Origin: Lepiota brunneoincarnata
Taxonomy: Eukaryota > Basidiomycota > Agaricomycetes > Agaricales > Agaricaceae
NCBI GenBank assembly: GCA_023014365.1
Contig: JAEBUN010000029.1
Coordinates: 186,001-250,000 of the forward strand
Direction: 5' to 3'
DNA: 64,000 nt
Below the pieces are notes generated by a model that was not told the DNA's origin, searched no databases, and saw only the letters and a list, made by a program, of their open reading frames with translations. Shown piece by piece: positions 6,647 to 18,900 of this stretch. The position numbers were made by a program, and so were the translations under genes. Numbering within the stretch: position 1 is the first letter of the stretch; each line of letters starts with the position of its first letter.

Positions 6647-6927
6647 TTAGGTCTGTTTCTAGAGTTGTTTTCCATACAACTCATTAGTTTCCTTCTTCTG
6701 GGTACTCGGCTAGGTAGTTTGGTTCATAGTAATCGATCTGTGGTTGGTCAGTGGAGTCTGGTCTGGGGGGAATGACGGGGGAGAAGGTGGGAGTGGGAGT
6801 TCTGTGAAGATCGAGTATGGTGGCGGTTTCTGGGGATGGGGGTTGTCCTGGGTAAAAGATGTCGTATAGAAGGCGTCTGAAACGGGGACTTTCAATCCTT
6901 TCTTCTGGTGGGGTGATTGGGTTTGCT

Positions 6928-7666
6928 TCAGAAGGAACCGCATGGTTCTCCTGTAATGTTTGATTTGGCCACGTCATCATAGCATTCCTCATAGTAATCG
7001 TCATGGGTGAGGTCGATGTATTGATGGTGAGTTGTGGGAGTGGTCGAGGGACGGGTTGTAGGATTTCTGGAGTAGGGGGCGTGTCGAGTCTTTCGACTTG
7101 GGCATTTGGTCCGTTTATGGCGCAGTTGGAAGACAGCGCAGTGGGGGCATCTGTATTTGATGCAGTCGTATGAGTAGTGCCCTGGGGCATATTGCTTGCA
7201 TCCGAGGCAGGCAAATTGGGGGCAATCCATGGCCCAGTGTCCTGTGTGTCTGCATTGGATGCAGACTGATCTGTCGGTGGTTCGGGGGTTGTTTGTGAGT
7301 GAATGGGGTTGGGGGAGTTCCAAATCAGGACGTTGTTATTGGCGACAGTGTGGGTGGTGTCTTTGGTGGGGGTGAGAAGTCTGAAGGGATTTCTGATACT
7401 GGTGGGCTTTCTTCCCTTGTTGGGGACGGTGGTGATGATAGTGGCAGTGGTCGTCGTGGTAGTGGTGGGGATGGTTGTGGTGGGGGGCTGCGAGGTATGT
7501 ACCTCATTTTGTTTGGGTAGGTTCTTCGACACCTCAGACATGAGGCCCGATCTTGAGCGGAGAAGTCGCTCGAGTGATTCTGCCCAGGTGCGTTGCGTAT
7601 TGTATGCAGTAGCAAGAGCCTTAGTCTGTCGTACGTGGTGGGTATAGTCGTACCAGAGTTGTCGGT
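6928..7666 (-). pseudogene. Gypsy-2 ORF3, C-terminal part (double zinc knuckle)
   Basis: This is the C-terminal portion of a third ORF downstream of pol; its start is at 15933 beyond the Gypsy-1 insertion. A Thr/Pro-rich linker precedes two CCHC knuckles, CIQCRHTGHWAMDC (C-x2-C-x4-H-x4-C) and CLGCKQYAPGHYSYDC (C-x2-C-x6-H-x4-C), then a CPHC pair and an acidic tail ending SNITGEPCGSF. A one-base deletion before the knuckles shifts the frame relative to the N-terminal half. Gypsy-3 and Gypsy-4 carry homologues. Role unknown; nucleic-acid binding is inferred from the knuckles. Confidence 0.7.
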
Positions 7667-7671
7667 CGTAT

Positions 7672-8332
7672 TGTCATATCCACACCAAACCTAGAGCTTA
7701 ACCATTAGGCTTCGGCTTCTCGACTCCACGTGTGCTCCACACGACAACCCTATGCCCTCTGACTCGGCCCCGACTGGCTCCGACCGCAACCCTTCGCCCC
7801 GATCATGCGACCTACCTCTACACGTGCCACGATCACCTGACCCTCGGTGCTCCCATTGTCCAGTTCTCCATTCTCCGTCCGTAATCAGAATACGTTACCA
7901 GTCTCCATACCCGTACCAGTCTCCATTCCATTCGAAATTATTCGTAATCCGCTTGTAACCATATGGGTCTCCGCTTCACTCCGCACGTAGCCAGTACGAG
8001 TCATAATTCGTCGAGCTAGTAGTATATATACCGTAGGCACTTGGCTTGTACTCCTCAGTCTGATAATCGAATCGAGCAGTGGACCAGTCCCCTGTTCCCT
8101 ATCCTCCTCTCTCTCTGCCTCGCTCCGCTTCGGCCCCGACTTCCTGAAATACGGACTCGGACAGTAGGAGGGCACAGCACATAAGCTGAGGCCGCAAGTC
8201 CACTCTCCGCCCGAAGTACTCCGCCTCGGTCCCGCCGTCTACGTACTGACGTCGTCCCATCCCCCGGTTACCTTATACCAAGGATACCACCCCGACCCTC
8301 CGCTTCGGTTCCGACCCGCACCGGCTCTAACA
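7672..8332 (+). repeat. Gypsy-1 5' LTR
   Basis: 661 bp, TGTCAT...CTAACA, nearly identical to 14894-15554 and related to the solo LTR at 28158-28817. It carries a TATA box at 8023-8030 and, 34 bp downstream, the sequence AGTCTGATAAT (8057-8067) that I take as the mRNA 5' end. Confidence 0.95.
8023..8067 (+). promoter_or_regulatory. Gypsy-1 LTR core promoter and predicted mRNA start
   Basis: TATATATA at 8023-8030 is followed 34 bp later by AGTCTGATAAT at 8057-8067. This spacing suits Pol II initiation at or just before the A of AGTCTG. The same 11 bases are complementary to the sequence immediately after the LTR (8335-8345), which fixes the likely start of the genomic RNA. Confidence 0.6.
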
Positions 8333-8334
8333 GT

Positions 8335-8345
8335 ATTATCAGACT
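8335..8345 (+). promoter_or_regulatory. Gypsy-1 self-priming primer-binding site
   Basis: ATTATCAGACT lies two bases after the 5' LTR and is the exact reverse complement of AGTCTGATAAT at 8057-8067, the predicted 5' end of the element's own RNA. In Tf1 of fission yeast an 11-base match of this kind lets the folded mRNA 5' end prime reverse transcription in place of a tRNA. I saw no obvious tRNA match here. Confidence 0.65.
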
Positions 8346-8385
8346 CAAACTCCTCCTGTCCATTACACTCTAATCCTTTCTAACC

Positions 8386-9792
8386 ATGGTCTCTCGAACA
8401 GTCACCCGTCCCCGCACTCGGGTAACTCCAGCTGCTCGCCATAGCAAACGCATCATTCGACAATCTCCTTCCGAGGAATTACAACCCGACCCCCCAAGGG
8501 TTTCTCCCCCTTGCCAACAATCCATCGTGCCCTCAACTCCAGACCGGTTCAGTGAAGATATTCAACCTTCACTATTCCAGACTCCCGACGGCCCCGACGG
8601 TGGCCCCGACCCAAATCCCGATCCCAGCGACCCTGGTGATCCCAACGACTACCCTGACAATGGGGACGGACCCCCGGACGACGACGAACCGTCAGACAAC
8701 AACGACAACAATAACAACATTCCGCCTGGCAACACCCAAAATGACCATGACCAACTCCTGCTCCGAGTTTTCCAACGAATAGCCGATCAAATGGACGGCC
8801 GTGGGAACTCTCAACCCCCACAGCCTCCCCGAACCCCCCATACCAAGGCTCGTGAACCTGACATCTTTACAGGTTCCGACCCCACCAAACTCAAACCTTT
8901 CCTCTTCCAATGTCGACTCTACTTCCGTACTAACCCGGCCCAGTTCGCTATCCCCGCCACCAAGGTCAACTTCGCGTTGACGTACCTTACCGGCGTGGCC
9001 CAGCAACACTTCGAAATCGGCCTCGACGAGGCTGACAACCACGGAATAATGCACGATTGGATCGAGGACTGGGATCAGTTCACCCTGGAACTGCAGACCA
9101 ATTTCGGTCCCGCAGATCCGACTGGAGAAGCTGCTGAGCAGCTTGACTCCCTCCGAATGCGCTATGACAAAAAGATCGCCGTCTACAACGTCGACTTTCT
9201 CCATCTGGCCGGCCAACTCCGCTGGGGTGATGAGGTATTCTGTCACCGCTACTACAAAGGCCTCCCCGACCGCATCCAGGACATTCTGTCCAATCAGCCC
9301 GACGGCAAGCCCGACACCTTCATCGAAATGCGAGCAGCAGCGATGAAGATCGATGCTCGCTACTGGGAACGCCAACGTGAGAAGGCCCGCGCCAAAGCCG
9401 CTTTGGACCCGACCGCCTCTAGGAAACCTGGAGGCAACCCATCCCCTTCCACCGCGACAAACCATCAACCTGCTGCCAAGCCTGCCAACAGTAACAACAA
9501 AGGCAGCACCCCCAGTAATAACATCTTCAAGGGCAATCCGCCCAACCCGTCCGCCGGTCAGAAATCGGCCCCACCAAAGTCCGACCTTACTAGTAAACTT
9601 GGTAAGGACGGTAAATTAACCCCCGAGGAACGTCAACGACGTTTCGACAATAACCTCTGCCTTGTCTGCGCAGATCCCAATCACAGGGCTGCCAACTGCG
9701 ACAAGAAGAAATTCCCTGACGCCAAGGCTAAAGGCCGACAGGCTCAGATTTCCGAGACAGACGCGCCGGCTCTCCCGAGCTCGGAAAAATAG
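8386..9792 (+). CDS. Gypsy-1 Gag
   Basis: Open frame of 468 codons from ATG 8386. The N-terminal third is low-complexity (Pro, Asp, Asn rich). A capsid-like retrotransposon Gag domain follows (about residues 155-320), with the typical [20 protein letters not shown] opening. Near the C-terminus there is a zinc knuckle, [14 protein letters not shown] (C-x2-C-x4-H-x4-C). Gag should form the particle that packages the element RNA. The frame ends GAA AAA TAG, and pol continues without a start codon in the -1 frame, so a -1 shift on the AAA codon is the probable route to Pol. Unlike pol, gag has no indels. Confidence 0.88.
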
Positions 9793-12700
9793 TCGGCGGT
9801 CCTCAGGCCTCTGCACAGACTGAGGATCGCATTGAACTCTGCTGTGCTCCAGAGAGTTTCCGTCTCAATGCGTCCGCTCTTTCCGATCCAAACTCTCTTC
9901 ATATTACATTAACTTCTCCTTTAGTTACTTTGTTACCCTCTGTTTCCGCTCCTGTACTCTCCGCTTCGGACCCGCTTTCTACAACGGACAATGTAGTTAG
10001 TTCTGACTTTTCTTCTTCTTTTTCTCCTTTCAAAGCTCTTGTTGATAGTGGTTCTACTCACTGTTTTGTGGACTCTTCTTTCGTTCGTTCTCATAGTATT
10101 CCAACCTCGTCCATCCCGGCTATTGAACTTCGGTTATTTGATGGGACCTCAAATGCCTACATTACGGAGCTTGTGCAACTGCCTGTATCCTTCCCCTCCG
10201 GTGAATCTATCATTTTGGACACTTATGTCACCCAGCTCGACTCTTCCTGTTCTGTGGTCTTAGGACACAACTGGCTCACCCGCTACAATCCGTTGATTGA
10301 CTGGGCTTTGGGCAGTATTACTTTCCGGCCATCCCTACTTCGAGAATCCTGCTTCCGTCTCTACCTGCGTCGCACCCGCATCGGCTCCGCCTATGGCCGC
10401 CCCTTACTCTCCTGACCTAGGTTCACCACCCCTGTCCGGGACCTCATCCCAATCTGTCCCCCTTGCGAAACCGCACATCTCCTTGATAAACGCTCCTGCC
10501 TTTATCCGCGCTGCCAAGCTCCCTGGCTCCCAACAATTCCGAATCAATCTTTCCGCCGCCTCCGCATCGGCCGCGTCCTCTTCTGTCTCCGAGGAACCGC
10601 CTGACCTCTCGTCCATCCCCGAGGAATACCACGAGTTCGCTGACGTTTTCAGTAAATCGCGTGCTGACACACTTGCTCCACACCGCCCTTACGACCTCCA
10701 GATTAACCTAGAGGATGGCGGTCAGCCTCCGGTCGGTACCATTTACTCCCTTTCACAATCGGAGCTTGGAGCTCTACTGTGATTTTATTGACGAACATTT
10801 ATCTATTGGTTTCATCCGCCCCTCCACTTCCCCTCATGGAGCCCCGGTCCTCTTCGTCAAGAAAAAGGACGGCTCCCTCCGCTTATGCGTTGATTTTAGA
10901 GGTCTCAACCGTATTACCAAGAAGGACCGCTATCCCCTTCCGCTCATCTCCGACCTCTTAGACTCCCCTCGCAAAGCTCGCGTATATACCAAGATCGACC
11001 TCCGCCACGCCTACCATCTTGTCCGCGTTGCTGACGGCGACGAATGGAAGACCGCCTTTCGGACCCGCTACAGGCTCCTTCGAATGGATGGTTATGCCTT
11101 TCGGCCTCACCAATGCCCCCGCCACCTTCCAGCGGTTCATGAACGATATATTCAAGGACATGCTCGACGTCTGCGTTACTATCTACCTTGACGACATTCT
11201 GATATACTCCGACAACCATAGTATCCATCGTGACCAAGTCAAGGAGGTCCTCAAGCGGCTCCGCCAACACAGGTCTATACGCCCGCCCTGACAAATGCCA
11301 GTTCCACTCTGACACAGTGGAATATCTCGGCTACATTCTCTCCCCCGACGGCCTCCGAATGGACCAATCTAAGGTCAAGACCATCCAGGAGTGGCCTGAG
11401 CCTAAGAAAGTCAAGGACATCCAGTCCTTCTTAGGCTTCGCCAATTTCTACCGTCGCTTCATTCACGGATACTCCGACATCGTCGTTCCGCTCACTCGCC
11501 TCACCCGCAAAGACGTGAAGTGGAATTTTACTGATGATTGTCGCGAGGCCTTTAACTCCCTGAAGGAAGCATTTATCTCCGCCCCCAGTCCTCACTCCTT
11601 GGGTCCCCGACGCTCAGATCATTGTCGAGACCGACGCCTCCGACTACGCCCTTGCGGCAATCCTCTCTATCGTCACCGACGATGGGGAGGTCCATCCCGT
11701 TGCATTCCATTCCCGCACCTTTAACACGGCCGAACTCAACTATGACACTCACGACAAGGAACTCCTGGCGATATTCGAAGCCTTTCGCATCTGGCGGCAC
11801 TATCTCGAAGGTGCCCCCCTTGCTATTGATGTGGTCACTGACCACAAGAACCTCGAATACTTCTGCACCACCAAGATCCTGACTCGCCGCCAAGCTCGTT
11901 GGTCCGAGTTCCTATCCCAATTCCACCTCGTCATCCGTTTCCGACCCGGCCGCCTCGGCACCAAGCCTGACGCCCTAACTAGACGATGGGACGTCTACCC
12001 TAAAGGGGGGAATAGCGACTATGCATCAGTCAACCCGCACAACTTCCGGCCTGTGTTCACTCACGAACAGCTCGCGGCCTCCGTCCAGTGCCACCACTCT
12101 TTACGCCCCTTCCCTTCGCGCAGCTGTAGTCATGGACCTCGATCAGCTACACCGCGATATTCTCGCCGCCCTACCAGCGGATCCGACCGCTTCCGCCCAT
12201 CTTGCCAGCCCAGAAGGCCGTTGGTCAGTTAATGATAAAGGTTTCCTCCTCTTAGACGACAGAATCTACGTCCCTGACGCCGACAATCTCCGACTTCGGG
12301 TCCTCCAGTACAAGCATGATCACGTCCTAGCCGGCCACTTCGGTCAGAATAAAACGCTGGAACTCATCCGGCGCGAATACACCTGGCCTAGCGTCCGCAC
12401 CTTCGTCAAGGATTTCTGTAAGTCTTGCGTCACCTGTATGAGGTCTAAACCCCAGCGCCATCGCCCCTACGGTCTCCTTAAGCAACTCCCCATCCCCGAA
12501 CGCCCTTGGAATTCAATCTCCATGGACTTCATCGAAAAACTTCCCGCCTCCTCCGGCTATGATGCCATCCTGGTAATCGTTGACAGACTCACCAAACAAT
12601 CCCTCTTCATTCCGACTTATGATACCATCACTTCCTCCGACCTCGCCCGCCTATTCGTCCTCCACATCTTCTCTAAGCATGGCGTGCCCGAACATGTTAC

Positions 12701-13603
12701 CTCCGACCGCGGCTCCGAATTCGTCTCCCACTTCTTCCGCTCATTGGGACAAGCCCTTGACATGAAGCTACATTTCACCTCGGGCTACCATCCAGAAGGC
12801 GACGGACAAACGGAACGCACCAACCAGACCCTCGAACAATACCTTTGGGTCTATTGTAACTACCAACAGGACAATTGGTCCGAATTACTACCCCTAGCTG
12901 AGTTTGCTTACAACAACGCTCCTAGTGCCACCACCGGTATCTCCCCGTTCTTCGCTAATAAAGGATACCATCCGAACATCACAGTTCATCCTGAACGCGA
13001 TCTTGCCTCCGCCCGGGCCCGCCATTTTGCTGTTGATCTCGACGACCTACATACCACCCTGAAGTCCGAAATAGCGCTAGCCCAGCAACGTTATCAGACC
13101 TCCGCCGACGCCCGCCGACTCCCCGCCCCGGACTTCAAGGTTGGACAAAAGGTATTCGTGAAAGCCCAATTCTTCCGCACCACCCGTCCCTCCAAAAAAC
13201 TCTCCGAAAAGTACCTTGGGCCTTATGAGATCATTGCACAAGCAGGTACTCACTCCCTTACACTCCGACTTCCTGACTCCATGCGTGGAGTACACCCAGT
13301 CTTCCATGTTTCCATGCTCGAACCAGCCACACCTAACACCATACCCGCCCGATCGGATCCGCCGCCCGCGCCGGTTTCCATTGACGGTGAACCAGAATAC
13401 GAGATTGCCCGCATCGTCGACTCTAAGATCGATCGGCGCCGCGCGTGCAAGCTCCTCTATAAAGTCATCTGGTTAGGTTACGAAGACACTGAAGAAGAGT
13501 CCTCGTGGTTGCCAGCCACCGAAGCTTGAACATGCTATAGATCTCGTAGAGGCTTTTCATTCCTCTTACCCTGCAAAGCCTGGTCCTCTTCACTCACTTT
13601 GAG
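9793..13603 (+). pseudogene. Gypsy-1 Pol (PR-RT-RH-IN-chromodomain), frameshifted
   Basis: The full Pol is recognisable across eight frame segments: aspartic protease [10 protein letters not shown] (about 10050), RT with VDFRGLN, the [10 protein letters not shown] block and YLDDIL (about 11187), RNase H (VETDASDYAL), integrase zinc region and DD35E core, then a chromodomain (EYEIARIVDSK, YKVIWLGY) whose last helix lies beyond the TGA near 13527. The breaks are near 10335, 10775, 11070, 11270, 11585, 12095 and 13525. Each is explained by one extra base and the frame always moves the same way. No nonsense substitution is seen. Either these are consensus errors or the copy is dead. Confidence 0.85.
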
Positions 13604-13671
13604 TTACTGACCACACATCACACCAAGAAACAACCATGTATTAAACAAACCCAAAAAACAACCCCGTACAA

Positions 13672-14758
13672 CTACCTATCGGTGTCGTCTCCAGAGAGCC
13701 CGGGCGACCCATTCACTTCTTCCATCAAATCCTGCACCTCCTCCTCCGAAGCGGGCCCGACACTCCCCTCCGAACCCTCCGTCTCCGAAAAATTTCCACT
13801 CGACCAATTTCCGTCCACCTGAGCCTCCCAACGCCGTAGTTGCTCGTAGCGGCCAGCAAGCGACCCCATCTTGTCGACCTTTTCCCCCAACCGAGCGATG
13901 GACCGCTCAATTCGCACCTCCAGGATGTAGATTTTCTTGACGGTCTCCTGGTGCCTTTCTTCGATGAGCTGTTTCAACTCTACAAGGTCCATCAATTGGC
14001 ATCCATCATAATACAAGGATTCCTTACTCACCTTCGAATTGCTGGCCCAACAAACCACCGGCCCCGCTCGGCTCCGTCTCCTCTTGACCCCCGCACCGTT
14101 TTTTCATTTTGCTGCACCGACGGCAACTCCTGGTGTTACTAAGAAACTATCAGTATGTAGTCCGGAAATCCTCCAAAATGACTTACCCGCCGGCCACCTC
14201 ACATGGGACCCCGTCTCGCTGGCACCTCCAGCAGGGATTCTCGCCCCTGAATACGTGCGCATTGCCCCGTCGTGGGGCCGCCCTCGCCTTTGCCTTCCCC
14301 TTACCCTTACCCCCTGAATCCCCGGAGTCCTCCTCCCCCTCTTCCTCCTCATCCCTCGCCTCATCCCTATCTGTATATTCGGAATCCGACTCCTCCGTAT
14401 CTACTTGCATCGGGTCTTCCGACAGACGGCTCGACAAGGCCCCTGTGGTCGTCGCAACGAGTCGGGCCCAAATCGCCCGACGCTCTGCCTCAGCGGTTTC
14501 CTCTTGCTGCCTCCTGATCTCCTCCACATATCGCTCCTTCGCGTGCTCTTCCGCTTGTCGCTGGCGCAGCTCTATGAGCCGCCGTCGCTCCTCCTCTTGG
14601 CGCTCTATTGCCAGCCGCCGCTCCTCCTCCTCTCGCCGTTCCTCTTCTTCTAGCCTCTCAATTTCGAGCCGCTCTCGTTCCTCTCGCTCCGCCTTCTCTC
14701 TCAGTAATCGCGCCTTGCGCTCCGTAGCGGTCGGTTGACGGGATGGTTGTCTGCTCAT
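13672..14758 (-). CDS. Antisense Zn2Cys6-type coiled-coil protein inside Gypsy-1
   Basis: A spliced gene on the strand opposite to Gypsy-1, between pol and the 3' LTR: complement(join(13672..13979, 14032..14138, 14187..14758)), 328 residues. Intron 1 (48 bp, GTAAGT...TTAG) and intron 2 (52 bp, GTGAGT...GTAG) keep the frame. The N-terminus (about 1-110) is a highly charged Arg/Glu coiled coil, then an acidic stretch and a basic GKGKGKAKAR patch. The cysteines CWRCQRDGVPC and CRRCSKMKKRC, joined across intron 1, give C-x2-C-x6-C-x9-C-x2-C-x6-C, the spacing of the fungal binuclear zinc cluster. A second coiled coil (ELKQLIEERHQETVKKIYIL) and an acidic tail follow. DNA binding is inferred. Introns survive retrotransposition because the element's RNA carries them antisense. 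A regulator of the element or a captured host gene are both possible. Confidence 0.7.
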
Positions 14759-14880
14759 GGGGGTAGGAGGTCAAGTTGTGTCCTCTCAAATTCGAATCAG
14801 TTCACCTTTTTTTTTATACCCTCATGGAATTTTCCGGTGGGCCCCGGTCTAGACCGCCTTGGGCCTCAAGGCTTGGCCCT

Positions 14881-14893
14881 AAAGGGGGGGCAC
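14881..14893 (+). promoter_or_regulatory. Gypsy-1 polypurine tract
   Basis: AAAGGGGGGG followed by CAC directly precedes the 3' LTR at 14894. Purine runs in this position prime plus-strand DNA synthesis in LTR retrotransposons. Confidence 0.7.
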
Positions 14894-15554
14894 TGTCATA
14901 TCCACACCAAACCTAGAGCTTAACCATTAGGCTTCGGCTTCTCGACTCCACGTGTGCTCCACACGACAACCCTATGCCCTCTGACTCGGCCCCGACTGGC
15001 TCCGACCGCAACCCTTCGCCCCGATCACACGACCTACCTCTACATGTGCCACGATCACCTGACCCTCGGTGCTCCCATTGTCCAGTTCTCCATTCTCCGT
15101 CCGTAATCAGAATACGTTACCAGTCTCCATACCCGTACCGGTCTCCATTCCATTCGAAATTATTCGTAATCCGCTTGTAACCATATGGGTCTCCGCTTCA
15201 CTCCGCACGTAGCCAGTACGAGTCATAATTCGTCGAGCTAGTAGTATATATACCGTAGGCACTTGGCTTGTACTCCTCAGTCTGATAATCGAATCGAGCA
15301 GTGGACCAGTCCCCTGTTCCCTATCCTCCTCTCTCTCTGCCTCGCTCCGCTTCGGCCCCGACTTCCTGAAATACGGACTCGGACAGTAGGAGGGCACAGC
15401 ACATAAGCTGAGGCCGCAAGTCCACTCTCCGCCCGAAGTACTCCGCCTCGGTCCCGCCGTCTACGTACTGACGTCGTCCCATCCCCCGGTTACCTTATAC
15501 CAAGGATACCACCCCGACCCTCCGCTTCGGTTCCGACCCGCACCGGCTCTAACA
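14894..15554 (+). repeat. Gypsy-1 3' LTR
   Basis: 661 bp. It differs from the 5' LTR at about four positions, for example CACACG for CATGCG and CCGGTC for CCAGTC, all transitions. It is followed by target duplication CGTAT. Confidence 0.95.
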
Positions 15555-15559
15555 CGTAT

Positions 15560-15933
15560 TCTGAAATTGGAGTGTGTTCCAATTTAGTTGTAAAGGCTCC
15601 GTCGGTGGCAGCCTTGTGCAGATCTCTGTCAGAAGGGTGATCTGGTCCATATGATCGTACTCCAGCTGTATGGTATCTAAGGGAGGCGGCTGGGGCAGCT
15701 GTTGGTTCTGGGGTGTCGTTGGGGTCGGGGGTCTTGTCCCTGAGGGAGGTGTATGTTGTGGCGAAGGTGTGAGAGGGGGTGTAGGGAGACGGGGCTGGAA
15801 CGGGAGTTGTCTGAAGTGTAGTATGTTCGACGCTTGCATTGTTTATGATGACAACGGAGGATGATGAGGAGGTTGGTGAAGGTGTTGTTGAAAAAGGGGG
15901 AGTAGTTTGGGGGCAAGTGAGGTCGAGGTTCAT
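15560..15933 (-). pseudogene. Gypsy-2 ORF3, N-terminal part
   Basis: This is the N-terminal segment of the third ORF, starting MNLDLTCPQTTPPFS at 15933, nine bases after the pol stop (15942-15944). It continues through a Pro/Ser/Thr-rich region with the family motif LRDKTPDPN to LEHTPISEY, where Gypsy-1 inserted. In Gypsy-4 the same sequence continues YDRQLWYDYTHHV. The upstream ATG used in Gypsy-4 is ATA here. Confidence 0.7.
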
Positions 15934-15941
15934 GGGTATCT

Positions 15942-18900
15942 TTAAGTACGTTTGGTGTGGGAGTGAAGTTGTCTTTGGTTGGTTCTGGTAGGTTCCTGTT
16001 CTTTCTGGATAATTCCATGAGCTTCTTTATACTCGGTCAAGTATTCTTTGGCGTTTGCATGAAGTGTTTCATCGGTGATCCATTCGTTCTCCATGTGGGA
16101 GTATCCTTTCCATTTGACGTAGTATTGGAGTTTTCTGCGGTGTTGGCGGTGATTTAGAATGGCTTCTATTTCGTATTCTTCTTCTTCATTGATGATGTCC
16201 GGTGGTGGTGGAGTCGGATGAGATCCGTATGCTTCTGTTTTGGTATATGGGGTTAGAAGGTTTCTGTGGAATATCGGGTGTATTTTCCATTTGATCGGAA
16301 GTTTTAGCTTGTAGGTGAGTGGCGATAAGACTTCTGAGATAAGGAAGGGTCCTAGTCGTTTTGGGAATATTTTGTTGGAAATGAAGGGGAGTTTGAGGTT
16401 CTTGGCTTCTAGCCATACTTTTTGACATGTTTCAAGGGGTTTGACAGTTCTTCTGGTTCTTTGTTTCATAATATCGGCAGAGAGTTGATGTGCCACATGT
16501 GCTTCTTTTCTGGCATCATCAAGGAGTCTGATGCATTTGTCTACTGATGGAAAGTTTGATGTTTCCATTACTGTGGGTATCAGCGGAGGGTTGTATCCCA
16601 TGATTAGTTTGAATGGGGATTTCTGCCTTGAGGCATGTATCTTGGAGTTGTGTGCAAACTCGGCAATAGGGAGGGTTTCTGACCAATCAAGAGGGTTTCT
16701 GGTGCAGTATATGGCAAGATAGGTTTCAATTTCCTGATTGTATCGTTCGGTAGAACCATCTGTCTGGGGATGGTATGCAGTTGAGAATGCTTGTTGGATG
16801 TTTAGTCGTTTGGCTAGTTGTCGGAGGGAGTTGGCTGCGAATCTGGGGTCTCGATCTGATATGATTTTGTTGGGTAGTCTGAATCTGGTGAAGACTTTTT
16901 CTATTAATAGTCATCCGATGTCGTCGGCGTTTGATCGATCTGAGGTTGGGATGAAAATTACCCCCTCTGTAAGGCTGTGGTCTACCATGGACAATATCAC
17001 ATTGTGGCTGGCGCTAGGCGGTAGACCAGTGATAAGATCCCATGAGATCTGTGCAAATGGGCATTTGGAAGATGATGGTGGAATAGGTTGAGTTGGTGTG
17101 CGATCTGGTCTGCGTATGATTTTGTGTTGCTGGCACTCTGGACAGCCTTTGACGTAGTTCTTTATGAACGTCGACATTCCTGGCCAATATACTTCTTTCT
17201 TGGTGAGGCGGTATGTTTCCTGTTCTCCAGGGTGGCCACGTGTGGGGTAGTCGTGGTATCTTGCGATGACATTGTGTCTGAGTTGGAGGTCTTCTGGAAT
17301 AATGACACGTTCTTGGAATGTGAGGAGTGGACCATTTGAGGTCGGAACTGTTCCGAAGTCTTTATCAGCAGTGTTAGGATGGGTTTCTTTTAGGAGTTTG
17401 AATGCTTCGGTGGTTCTAGCGTCGTATTTGGGTGATTCCGTGATTCTTTCTTGGAGTTCCATATCGATGGTGGTGATAAAGAGGTGTTCTGGGAGTACTG
17501 TGATCAGGTTTTGATCTTCTATGTCAGTGGTGGCGACAAAGAGGTTGTTTGGAAGCATGGTGACATCTTCGTTATTATTATCCTCATCAGGGATGTGGTC
17601 TGGACGTCTTGATAGAGCGTCTGGTGCAGGGATCTTTGATCCTGGGACATGTTCTAATTTGAAGTTGTAGTCAGCAAGGGTCTGGACCCATCATGCTTGT
17701 CTGCGGTTGATTTTCTGGGGTTTGTGCCAGTATGTTAGGTTTTGGTGATCCATTCTGATACGGATGGTATGGGGGCTGCCAAGGAGGTAATGGTGCCATT
17801 CTTTGAGGGCTCGGATAATTGCGAGAAGTTCCCTGTCGTAGATATCGTAATTGCGTTCCGCTGGTCCGAACGTCTTTGAATAGAATGATACGGGTTTCCG
17901 TATTCTGTTGATGTCATGTTGGTAAAGGACAGCTCCTGATGCGAATTTGGAAGCATCAGCTTCTATTTCAAAGGGTTTTGTGGAGTTGGGCATGAGGAGT
18001 ACCGGTTCCTTGAGGAATTCGTTCTTGAGCGTTTCGAACACTTTCTGTTCTTCTTTCCATTCAAATTTGTTTGATTTGGAAAGGAGTTGGTTCAGGGGTT
18101 TGGTGTGGTGGGAGTAGTTGTGGATGAACTTCCGATAGAAGTTACAGAATCCGATAAATTTCCAAATGTGTCGGACTGTTTTTGGCACTGGCCAGTCTTC
18201 TATTCCCTTGAGTTTTCTGGGATCCATTTTGATCTCGTCTGGCGTGATAATCATGCCTAGATATTTGAGTCGTTGTTTGTTGAACTTGCATTTCTCTGTT
18301 TTGAGGTAAAGGTCGTTTTCTTGCAGGATTTGCAGTACTTTTTCCATAAGTCGGTCAGTTTCTTCCTGGGTTTTGCCGTAGATTAGGATATCATCCATGT
18401 AGATGATGATTCCTCCTTTCTCCATTATTTCAGAGAATAATGTGTCCATCATATGTTGGAACGTCGCGGGACTGTTGCAGAGTCCGAAAAACATAACAGT
18501 TGGTTCGAAAAGACCCATGGGAGTCTTGAACGCTGCTTTCCATTGATTGCCATCTTTGATTCTGACGTTATTGTATCCTAAGCGGACGTCAAGCTTAGTG
18601 AAATACTTAGCTCCTTTGAGTTTGTCCATGATAGAGGAAATCATGGGGATTGGGTAAGCGTTTTTGACAGTATGATTCGTTTAGATAACAATAGTCTTGG
18701 CAGGGTCGGAGGTCTCCTCCTTTCTTGGCAACGAAGAAGAAGGGTGATGCCATAGGGGATTTTGAGGGTGGATGTACCCTTTTCGGAGGTTTTCATCTAT
18801 GAATTCTTTTAGCGCCTTTTCTTCGGCAGGTGCCACTTGATAAGGTTTCATTGATTTTGCTTCGAATGTCGGTTTTAGTTCAATTTTGTGATCAAACATT

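Follow-up and report, generated by a model that had tools for sequence, protein, structure and literature searches.

What is a gene with two introns doing inside an LTR retrotransposon, on the strand opposite to gag-pol? A locus of Lepiota brunneoincarnata raises this question (assembly GCA_023014365.1, contig JAEBUN010000029.1, forward positions 186,001-250,000). This whole stretch of 64,000 nt was analysed and is called the window, and all positions are given within it. The plus strand of the window carries a Ty3/Gypsy element at 7672-15554, whose LTRs are identical at 662 of 667 aligned positions, the alignment extending a few bases beyond the LTR ends. A 5-bp target duplication, CGTAT, was read directly from the sequence at 7667-7671 and 15555-15559. 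The gene occupies the minus strand of the segment that separates pol from the 3' LTR and has three exons, with a 987-nt coding sequence for 328 aa. The features of the element and of the gene are as follows.

7672..8332, plus strand: 5' LTR, 661 bp (LTR alignment; ends read from the sequence)
8386..9792, plus strand: gag ORF, 468 aa, Retrotrans_gag (ORF list and Pfam; a CCHC knuckle near the gag end seen by eye)
9930..13529, plus strand: pol (Pfam: integrase, SH3 and a chromodomain below threshold; by eye: protease, RT and RNase H)
13979-13672, minus strand: exon 3 including the stop codon; second helix and acidic tail
14031-13980, minus strand: intron 2, 52 bp, GTGAGT..TAG (splice-site reading)
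14138-14032, minus strand: exon 2; second half of the cysteine cluster, with C196, C199 and C206 at 14125-14093
14186-14139, minus strand: intron 1, 48 bp, GTAAGT..TAG, with a CTGAT branch-like site
14758-14187, minus strand: exon 1; charged helix, acidic stretch, basic GKGKGKAKAR stretch and first half of the cysteine cluster
14233-14201, minus strand: exon 1 cysteine codons C176, C179 and C186 (from the translation)
14812..14818, minus strand: TATAAAA, 60 nt 5' of the antisense ATG in the window copy
14845..14856, minus strand: CGG-N6-CCG palindrome, 5' of the TATA box; possible binding site, kept as a lead
14881..14890, plus strand: polypurine tract AAAGGGGGGG, immediately 5' of the 3' LTR (read from the sequence)
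14894..15554, plus strand: 3' LTR, 661 bp (LTR alignment; ends read from the sequence)

In Pfam, the window element matches gag, integrase zinc-binding, integrase core and Tf2-type SH3 models, and the ORF at 12021-13526 scores 20.6 bits against the Chromo cut-off of 25.1; PF00385 is present in several integrase relatives from the protein collection. The pol of the window copy is split over several frames, and many other copies have one open frame of 1286-1287 aa at the same place. The whole element is inserted into another, minus-strand element with RT, RNase H, integrase and chromodomain matches. This recipient, with a chromodomain pol, occupies 6684-7541 and 15490-18644, and its downstream sense ORF is rich in CCHC-like knuckles by eye, with no Pfam match; similar knuckle text also flanks one further locus of the family (L069).

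An earlier note on this DNA had proposed the gene from the letters alone. Re-derivation returned its coordinates and its 328 residues exactly, with splice phases (2 and 1) that agree. The spacing C-x2-C-x6-C-x9-C-x2-C-x6-C is obtained by the spliced form only, as had been claimed; translation bears this out, and intron 1 contains in-frame stops. A 209-aa ORF on the sense strand across the same stretch was rejected as a candidate, the longest sense frame over exon 1 shifting frame among ten copies and sometimes being short.

We then searched the genome itself (55.6 Mb, 95 contigs). With the antisense gene as query, the DNA search gave at least 40 scored matches from 213 candidates and the protein search at least 252 matches. 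From these searches 68 loci were collected, the window copy included; they were picked by their match to the antisense gene and are hence a non-random sample. A script seeking GT..AG introns near the expected places recovered a spliced frame in 40 of them. When an ATG, GT..AG introns, the exact cysteine spacing and at least 300 aa were demanded, a filter that favours intact copies, 33 of the 68 passed, among them the window copy, and the intron phases were 2 and 1 in all 33. Frame and phases are thus kept in other family copies, which the earlier note had wanted inspected. Relative to the window copy, nine other copies showed 65-100% identity in intron 1 and 60-100% in intron 2, where the 100% cases include recombinants; intron lengths across the nine differ by one to three bases, and the splice sites are retained. 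Within 60 nt, a poly(A) signal of the form AATACA was seen in 23 of the 33 intact copies and AATAAA in 2, with neither in 8, which does not establish a conserved signal. CpG to TpG/CpA-like decay is common in the older copies among the 68 loci (TGA stops, R to W/Q/C); it was judged by eye and counted for the arms of the palindrome only.

The earlier note had placed the gene between pol and the 3' LTR on the opposite strand, which holds for the window copy, and an integrase lies nearby on the opposite strand in 67 of the 68 loci, with none in the fetched stretch of the remaining one (L046). Conversely, at least 124 of 150 listed integrase C-terminus hits have an antisense-gene match on the other strand no more than 3.5 kb downstream; of the 26 listed hits with no listed match, 4 share a deletion junction described below and 22 are others. 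Two integrase C-termini, at C15:751275-751838 and C11:142302-142865 of this genome (G000), are 99-100% identical and have neither a listed antisense-gene match nor the deletion junction. Being antisense to gag-pol, located between pol and the 3' LTR, carried by most copies and conserved like the element proteins, the gene has the positional and conservation properties of an antisense additional ORF of LTR retrotransposons (aORF-3R).

Judged from the sequences of these copies, the gene is under purifying selection. In ten representative intact copies (45 pairs), the median dN/dS was 0.21 in the gene frame, compared with 1.13, 1.38, 1.30, 0.35 and 1.56 when the same spliced letters were read in the five other frames; this calculation, which the earlier note had suggested, came out in favour of the gene. 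The frame at 0.35 is on the opposite strand, and we take it as the frame with third positions opposite the gene's own. The compared part of integrase had a median of 0.085 in the same ten copies. Exon by exon, differences at codon positions 1/2/3, summed over non-independent pairs, numbered 904/942/2315, 97/71/334 and 849/606/1176, with a third-position excess in each. Close copies showed weaker constraint: dN/dS was 0.37-0.68 for 12 copies against the window copy, and these 13 copies carry 36 N : 23 S private and 14 N : 5 S shared changes (sites: 758 N, 226 S). Codon differences fixed between subfamilies were poorer in N, at N:S ratios of 10:21, 36:45, 48:57, 46:46 and 43:39 (sites 758:226). 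Since close copies are less constrained and fixed differences poorer in N, the pattern is on the whole what selection on mobile elements, followed by drift of the inserted copies, would produce, even if the contrast between private and fixed changes is not uniform (6 N : 11 S private changes in one other six-copy subfamily) and the intact filter lowers apparent dN within families.

Upstream of the gene, 65 of the 68 loci share a TATA box, 56-61 nt ahead of the ATG position. It lies within the element, between the polypurine tract and the gene and about 75 bp from the LTR border, so transcription need not begin in the LTR. One locus with an intact frame (L058) lacks the TATA stretch, and two others (L014 and L051) have altered TATA boxes. 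The CGG-N6-CCG palindrome is intact in 39 of the 68 loci; its first arm reads CGG in 48, TGG in 13, CAG in 4, CGA in 2 and GGG in 1, its second CCG in 51, CCA in 9 and CTG in 8, and the failures are mostly CpG-type changes. In mononucleotide shuffles, 251 of 5000 sequences contained the N6 motif and 2338 of 5000 had the arms at one spacing or another from 0 to 15; conservation is also good along the entire stretch from the polypurine tract to the TATA box. Because shuffling produces the motif and the entire stretch is conserved anyway, we rejected the palindrome as a proven target and keep it as a lead.

The encoded protein was examined with single-sequence AlphaFold2 models in which exons 1 and 3 were modelled separately. 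Exon 1 was modelled with a helix at residues 11-112 (pLDDT mostly 95-98) and low confidence up to residue 190, and exon 3 with a helix at residues 2-60 (about 59 residues) and a short second helix. The predicted order is a charged helix, an acidic stretch, a basic stretch, the zinc-cluster-like segment, a helix and an acidic tail. The earlier note had described the cluster as embedded in charged coiled coils; in the models it instead follows about 60 low-confidence residues and sits between helices of about 100 and about 59 residues.

Zn2Cys6 clusters have the spacing pattern C-x2-C-x6-C-x5-12-C-x2-C-x6-8-C. It is found in the window copy and in the 33 filtered copies, where the filter demanded it. 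The Pfam profile of this domain (Zn_clus, PF00172) scores the full protein at 13.9 bits, below its cut-off of 21, and matches two of five family members at E up to 1. A natural fragment of 45 aa reached 21.6 bits over two stretches, the better of which pairs the cluster's first half with the profile's second, and the same fragment rewritten with its second half first gave one continuous match of 21.1 bits. The term 'Zn2Cys6-like' used in the earlier note therefore describes the six cysteines, their allowed spacing and the two-stretch profile match well, but fits less well with a full-protein score below the cut-off and with halves that align to the profile in exchanged order. A resemblance to a Zn2Cys6 cluster whose halves have changed places is a suggestive reading only, because the two halves of such clusters resemble each other. 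Among solved structures, the 45-aa fragment found four chance-level matches (E 2.6 to 9.8), two of them fungal regulators (6e33 at 6.8 and LEU3 at 9.8), which we do not count as evidence.

Some copies are composites. In L038 and L050, identity to the window copy jumps from ~64-86% to 99-100% in the region of the end of exon 1 and exon 2, and for L050 dS is 0.018 in integrase and 0.307 in the antisense gene. Relative to L001, the recombinant elements L011, L018, L038 and L050 are nearly identical in exon 3 and 10-24% different in exon 1. Given the identity breakpoints within the gene and the dS contrast of L050, the gene has been shuffled between element lineages, with template switching as the probable mechanism.

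Other copies have lost most of the gene. One exact deletion junction occurs at four places (L069, C52:12060-14260; L070, C69:468400-470600; C25:79751; C52:28972), where the neighbouring pol frames are open for 1286, 1286, 1286 and 1181 aa. L069 and L070, which were read, keep the promoter, the start and the acidic tail in an in-frame 71-aa frame, lack the cysteine cluster and most of both helices, and have flanks unrelated to each other. The junction, compared with the nearest copies L038 (left) and L016 (right), from which the true parents may differ, has a 2-base overlap and no GT..AG edges, and an origin by sense splicing was rejected. A 7-base inverted repeat lies at the junction, and in about the first 640 bases of L070 in the minus reading, Ty1/copia-like RNase H text is seen by eye beside the insertion. 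Because one junction recurs at four places beside long pol frames, the antisense protein is not required in cis for every transposition and is dispensable in cis at least at times. It is possible that the deletion forms were helped in trans, which is a candidate reading.

We hold with moderate confidence that this is an antisense spliced gene of a chromovirus-type Ty3/Gypsy element with its own internal promoter, whose product is a nuclear DNA-binding regulator. The gene would be transcribed opposite gag-pol from the TATA promoter between it and the 3' LTR, and its two introns would be removed in vivo. In the genomic RNA these introns would be read in the non-spliceable sense and so persist; this was the earlier note's account of their survival through reverse transcription. 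In Gal4-type factors a zinc cluster, a dimerising helix and an acidic tail have a generally similar layout. The product, with such a cluster followed by a presumably dimerising helix and an acidic tail, would most likely enter the nucleus, bind zinc and DNA, and tune transcription of the element and perhaps its own promoter as well.

Possible, though doubtful by comparison, is that the protein is a selected accessory factor of retrotransposition itself, acting in nuclear entry of the integration complex, in chromatin targeting or as a nucleic-acid chaperone. Its charged, basic and zinc-binding-like segments would suit such tasks, and its position and possible nuclear role fit proposals that PMC7264820, in the text available, records for plant antisense genes; the arrangement of cluster and helix, and a TATA box that looks like a promoter independent of the genomic RNA, speak rather for a regulator. 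We regard as unlikely in its entirety a chromovirus-encoded, spliced antisense transcription factor with an order-swapped Zn2Cys6 domain that would bind CGG-N6-CCG between the TATA box and the polypurine tract and couple antisense with sense expression, the deletion derivatives being trans parasites. It is improbable that the antisense RNA is what matters, as dsRNA limiting copy number, and that the protein is incidental: the conserved antisense TATA box would serve this function too, and the accessible part of PMC7264820 considers control by antisense RNA as one possibility, but a dN/dS of 0.21 in the protein frame and the kept splice sites are unexpected from RNA function alone. We give equally little weight, or slightly less, to a captured host gene carried as a passenger with no function for the element. 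Such capture by LTR elements is known, as far as the same source was available (PMC7264820), and the introns and fungal-type cluster would suit it; yet the gene sits at the same place with the same promoter region under purifying selection across several subfamilies, and no stand-alone gene can be recognised among the 68 fetched loci, of which L046 is the one with no integrase in its fetched stretch. Open frames and splice-like sites arising by chance in GC-rich DNA, a notion that the long mirror frames seen in several copies on the sense strand opposite exon 1 might encourage, are very improbable given the conservation, the kept splice sites and phases and the dN/dS; the copies compared argue for a real, selected gene with two conserved introns, beyond chance.

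A recognisable domain layout, two introns, a conserved TATA box and many variants and deletion forms occur in one genome, and together these features make the function of antisense LTR-element genes directly testable; splicing of the two introns would in itself report antisense transcription. Such genes are reviewed as conserved and of unknown function in the consulted text of PMC7264820, hence the value of a testable case.

Relatives were sought more widely. With whole-protein and cysteine-region queries, no homologue was found in the protein collection, where the integrase control had 4103; the whole-protein search scored the 7993 candidates sharing most words, and since words from the charged helix probably filled this list, its null is weak evidence of absence. 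An intron-split gene may also be missing from gene predictions. The integrase relatives include named Trametes, Pisolithus, Paxillus, Scleroderma and Armillaria proteins. Viral contigs matched neither the antisense protein nor the integrase control, and this null is therefore uninformative.

Among fungi, the nearest parallel is Boty. Boty-like retrotransposons with an antisense gene, brtn, were reportedly described in Botrytis cinerea by Zhao et al. in 2011 (Virology 417:248). In citing descriptions, through which alone we compare it, Boty of Botrytis cinerea carries antisense brtn (PMC8365987, PMC7264820) and its gag-pol has a CHROMO domain (PMC4227169); like the Lepiota gene, brtn is an antisense gene in a fungal LTR element. 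The earlier note's statement that no fungal chromovirus with such a gene had been described was thus too strong. Our search of listings, covering open-licence papers and few subscription ones, turned up no antisense gene with a zinc cluster in any fungal element, whether from a basidiomycete or not.

In plants, the antisense ORFs of Grande (gene23), RIRE2, Retand (TRP28) and PvRetro13 likewise lie between pol and the 3' LTR and are kept in most copies, with regulatory or dsRNA roles proposed, and gene23 of Grande is driven by a promoter of its own and gives a nuclear product (PMC7264820, in the text available). For the TRP28 genes of Retand, DNA binding is predicted (PMC11963269). Unlike the Lepiota gene, these ORFs come with no mention of a zinc cluster in the available portions of PMC7264820 and PMC11963269; Retand is, moreover, a non-chromovirus, and the words 'zinc' and 'intron' are absent from PMC11963269.

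HBZ of HTLV-1 offers a model for an antisense spliced regulator with a similar genome position: according to the accessible text of PMC3185765, it is a spliced nuclear factor that contains a zipper helix and is produced in antisense from the proviral 3' end, and it inhibits the activation of sense transcription. HBZ transcripts start in the 3' LTR and the protein is of the bZIP type, whereas the conserved TATA box of the Lepiota gene is internal to the element and the domain predicted for its product is a zinc cluster. On the sources available, LTR elements with antisense genes are already known, Boty with brtn being a fungal case, and the zinc-cluster, two-intron form in Lepiota is a new variant of such genes.
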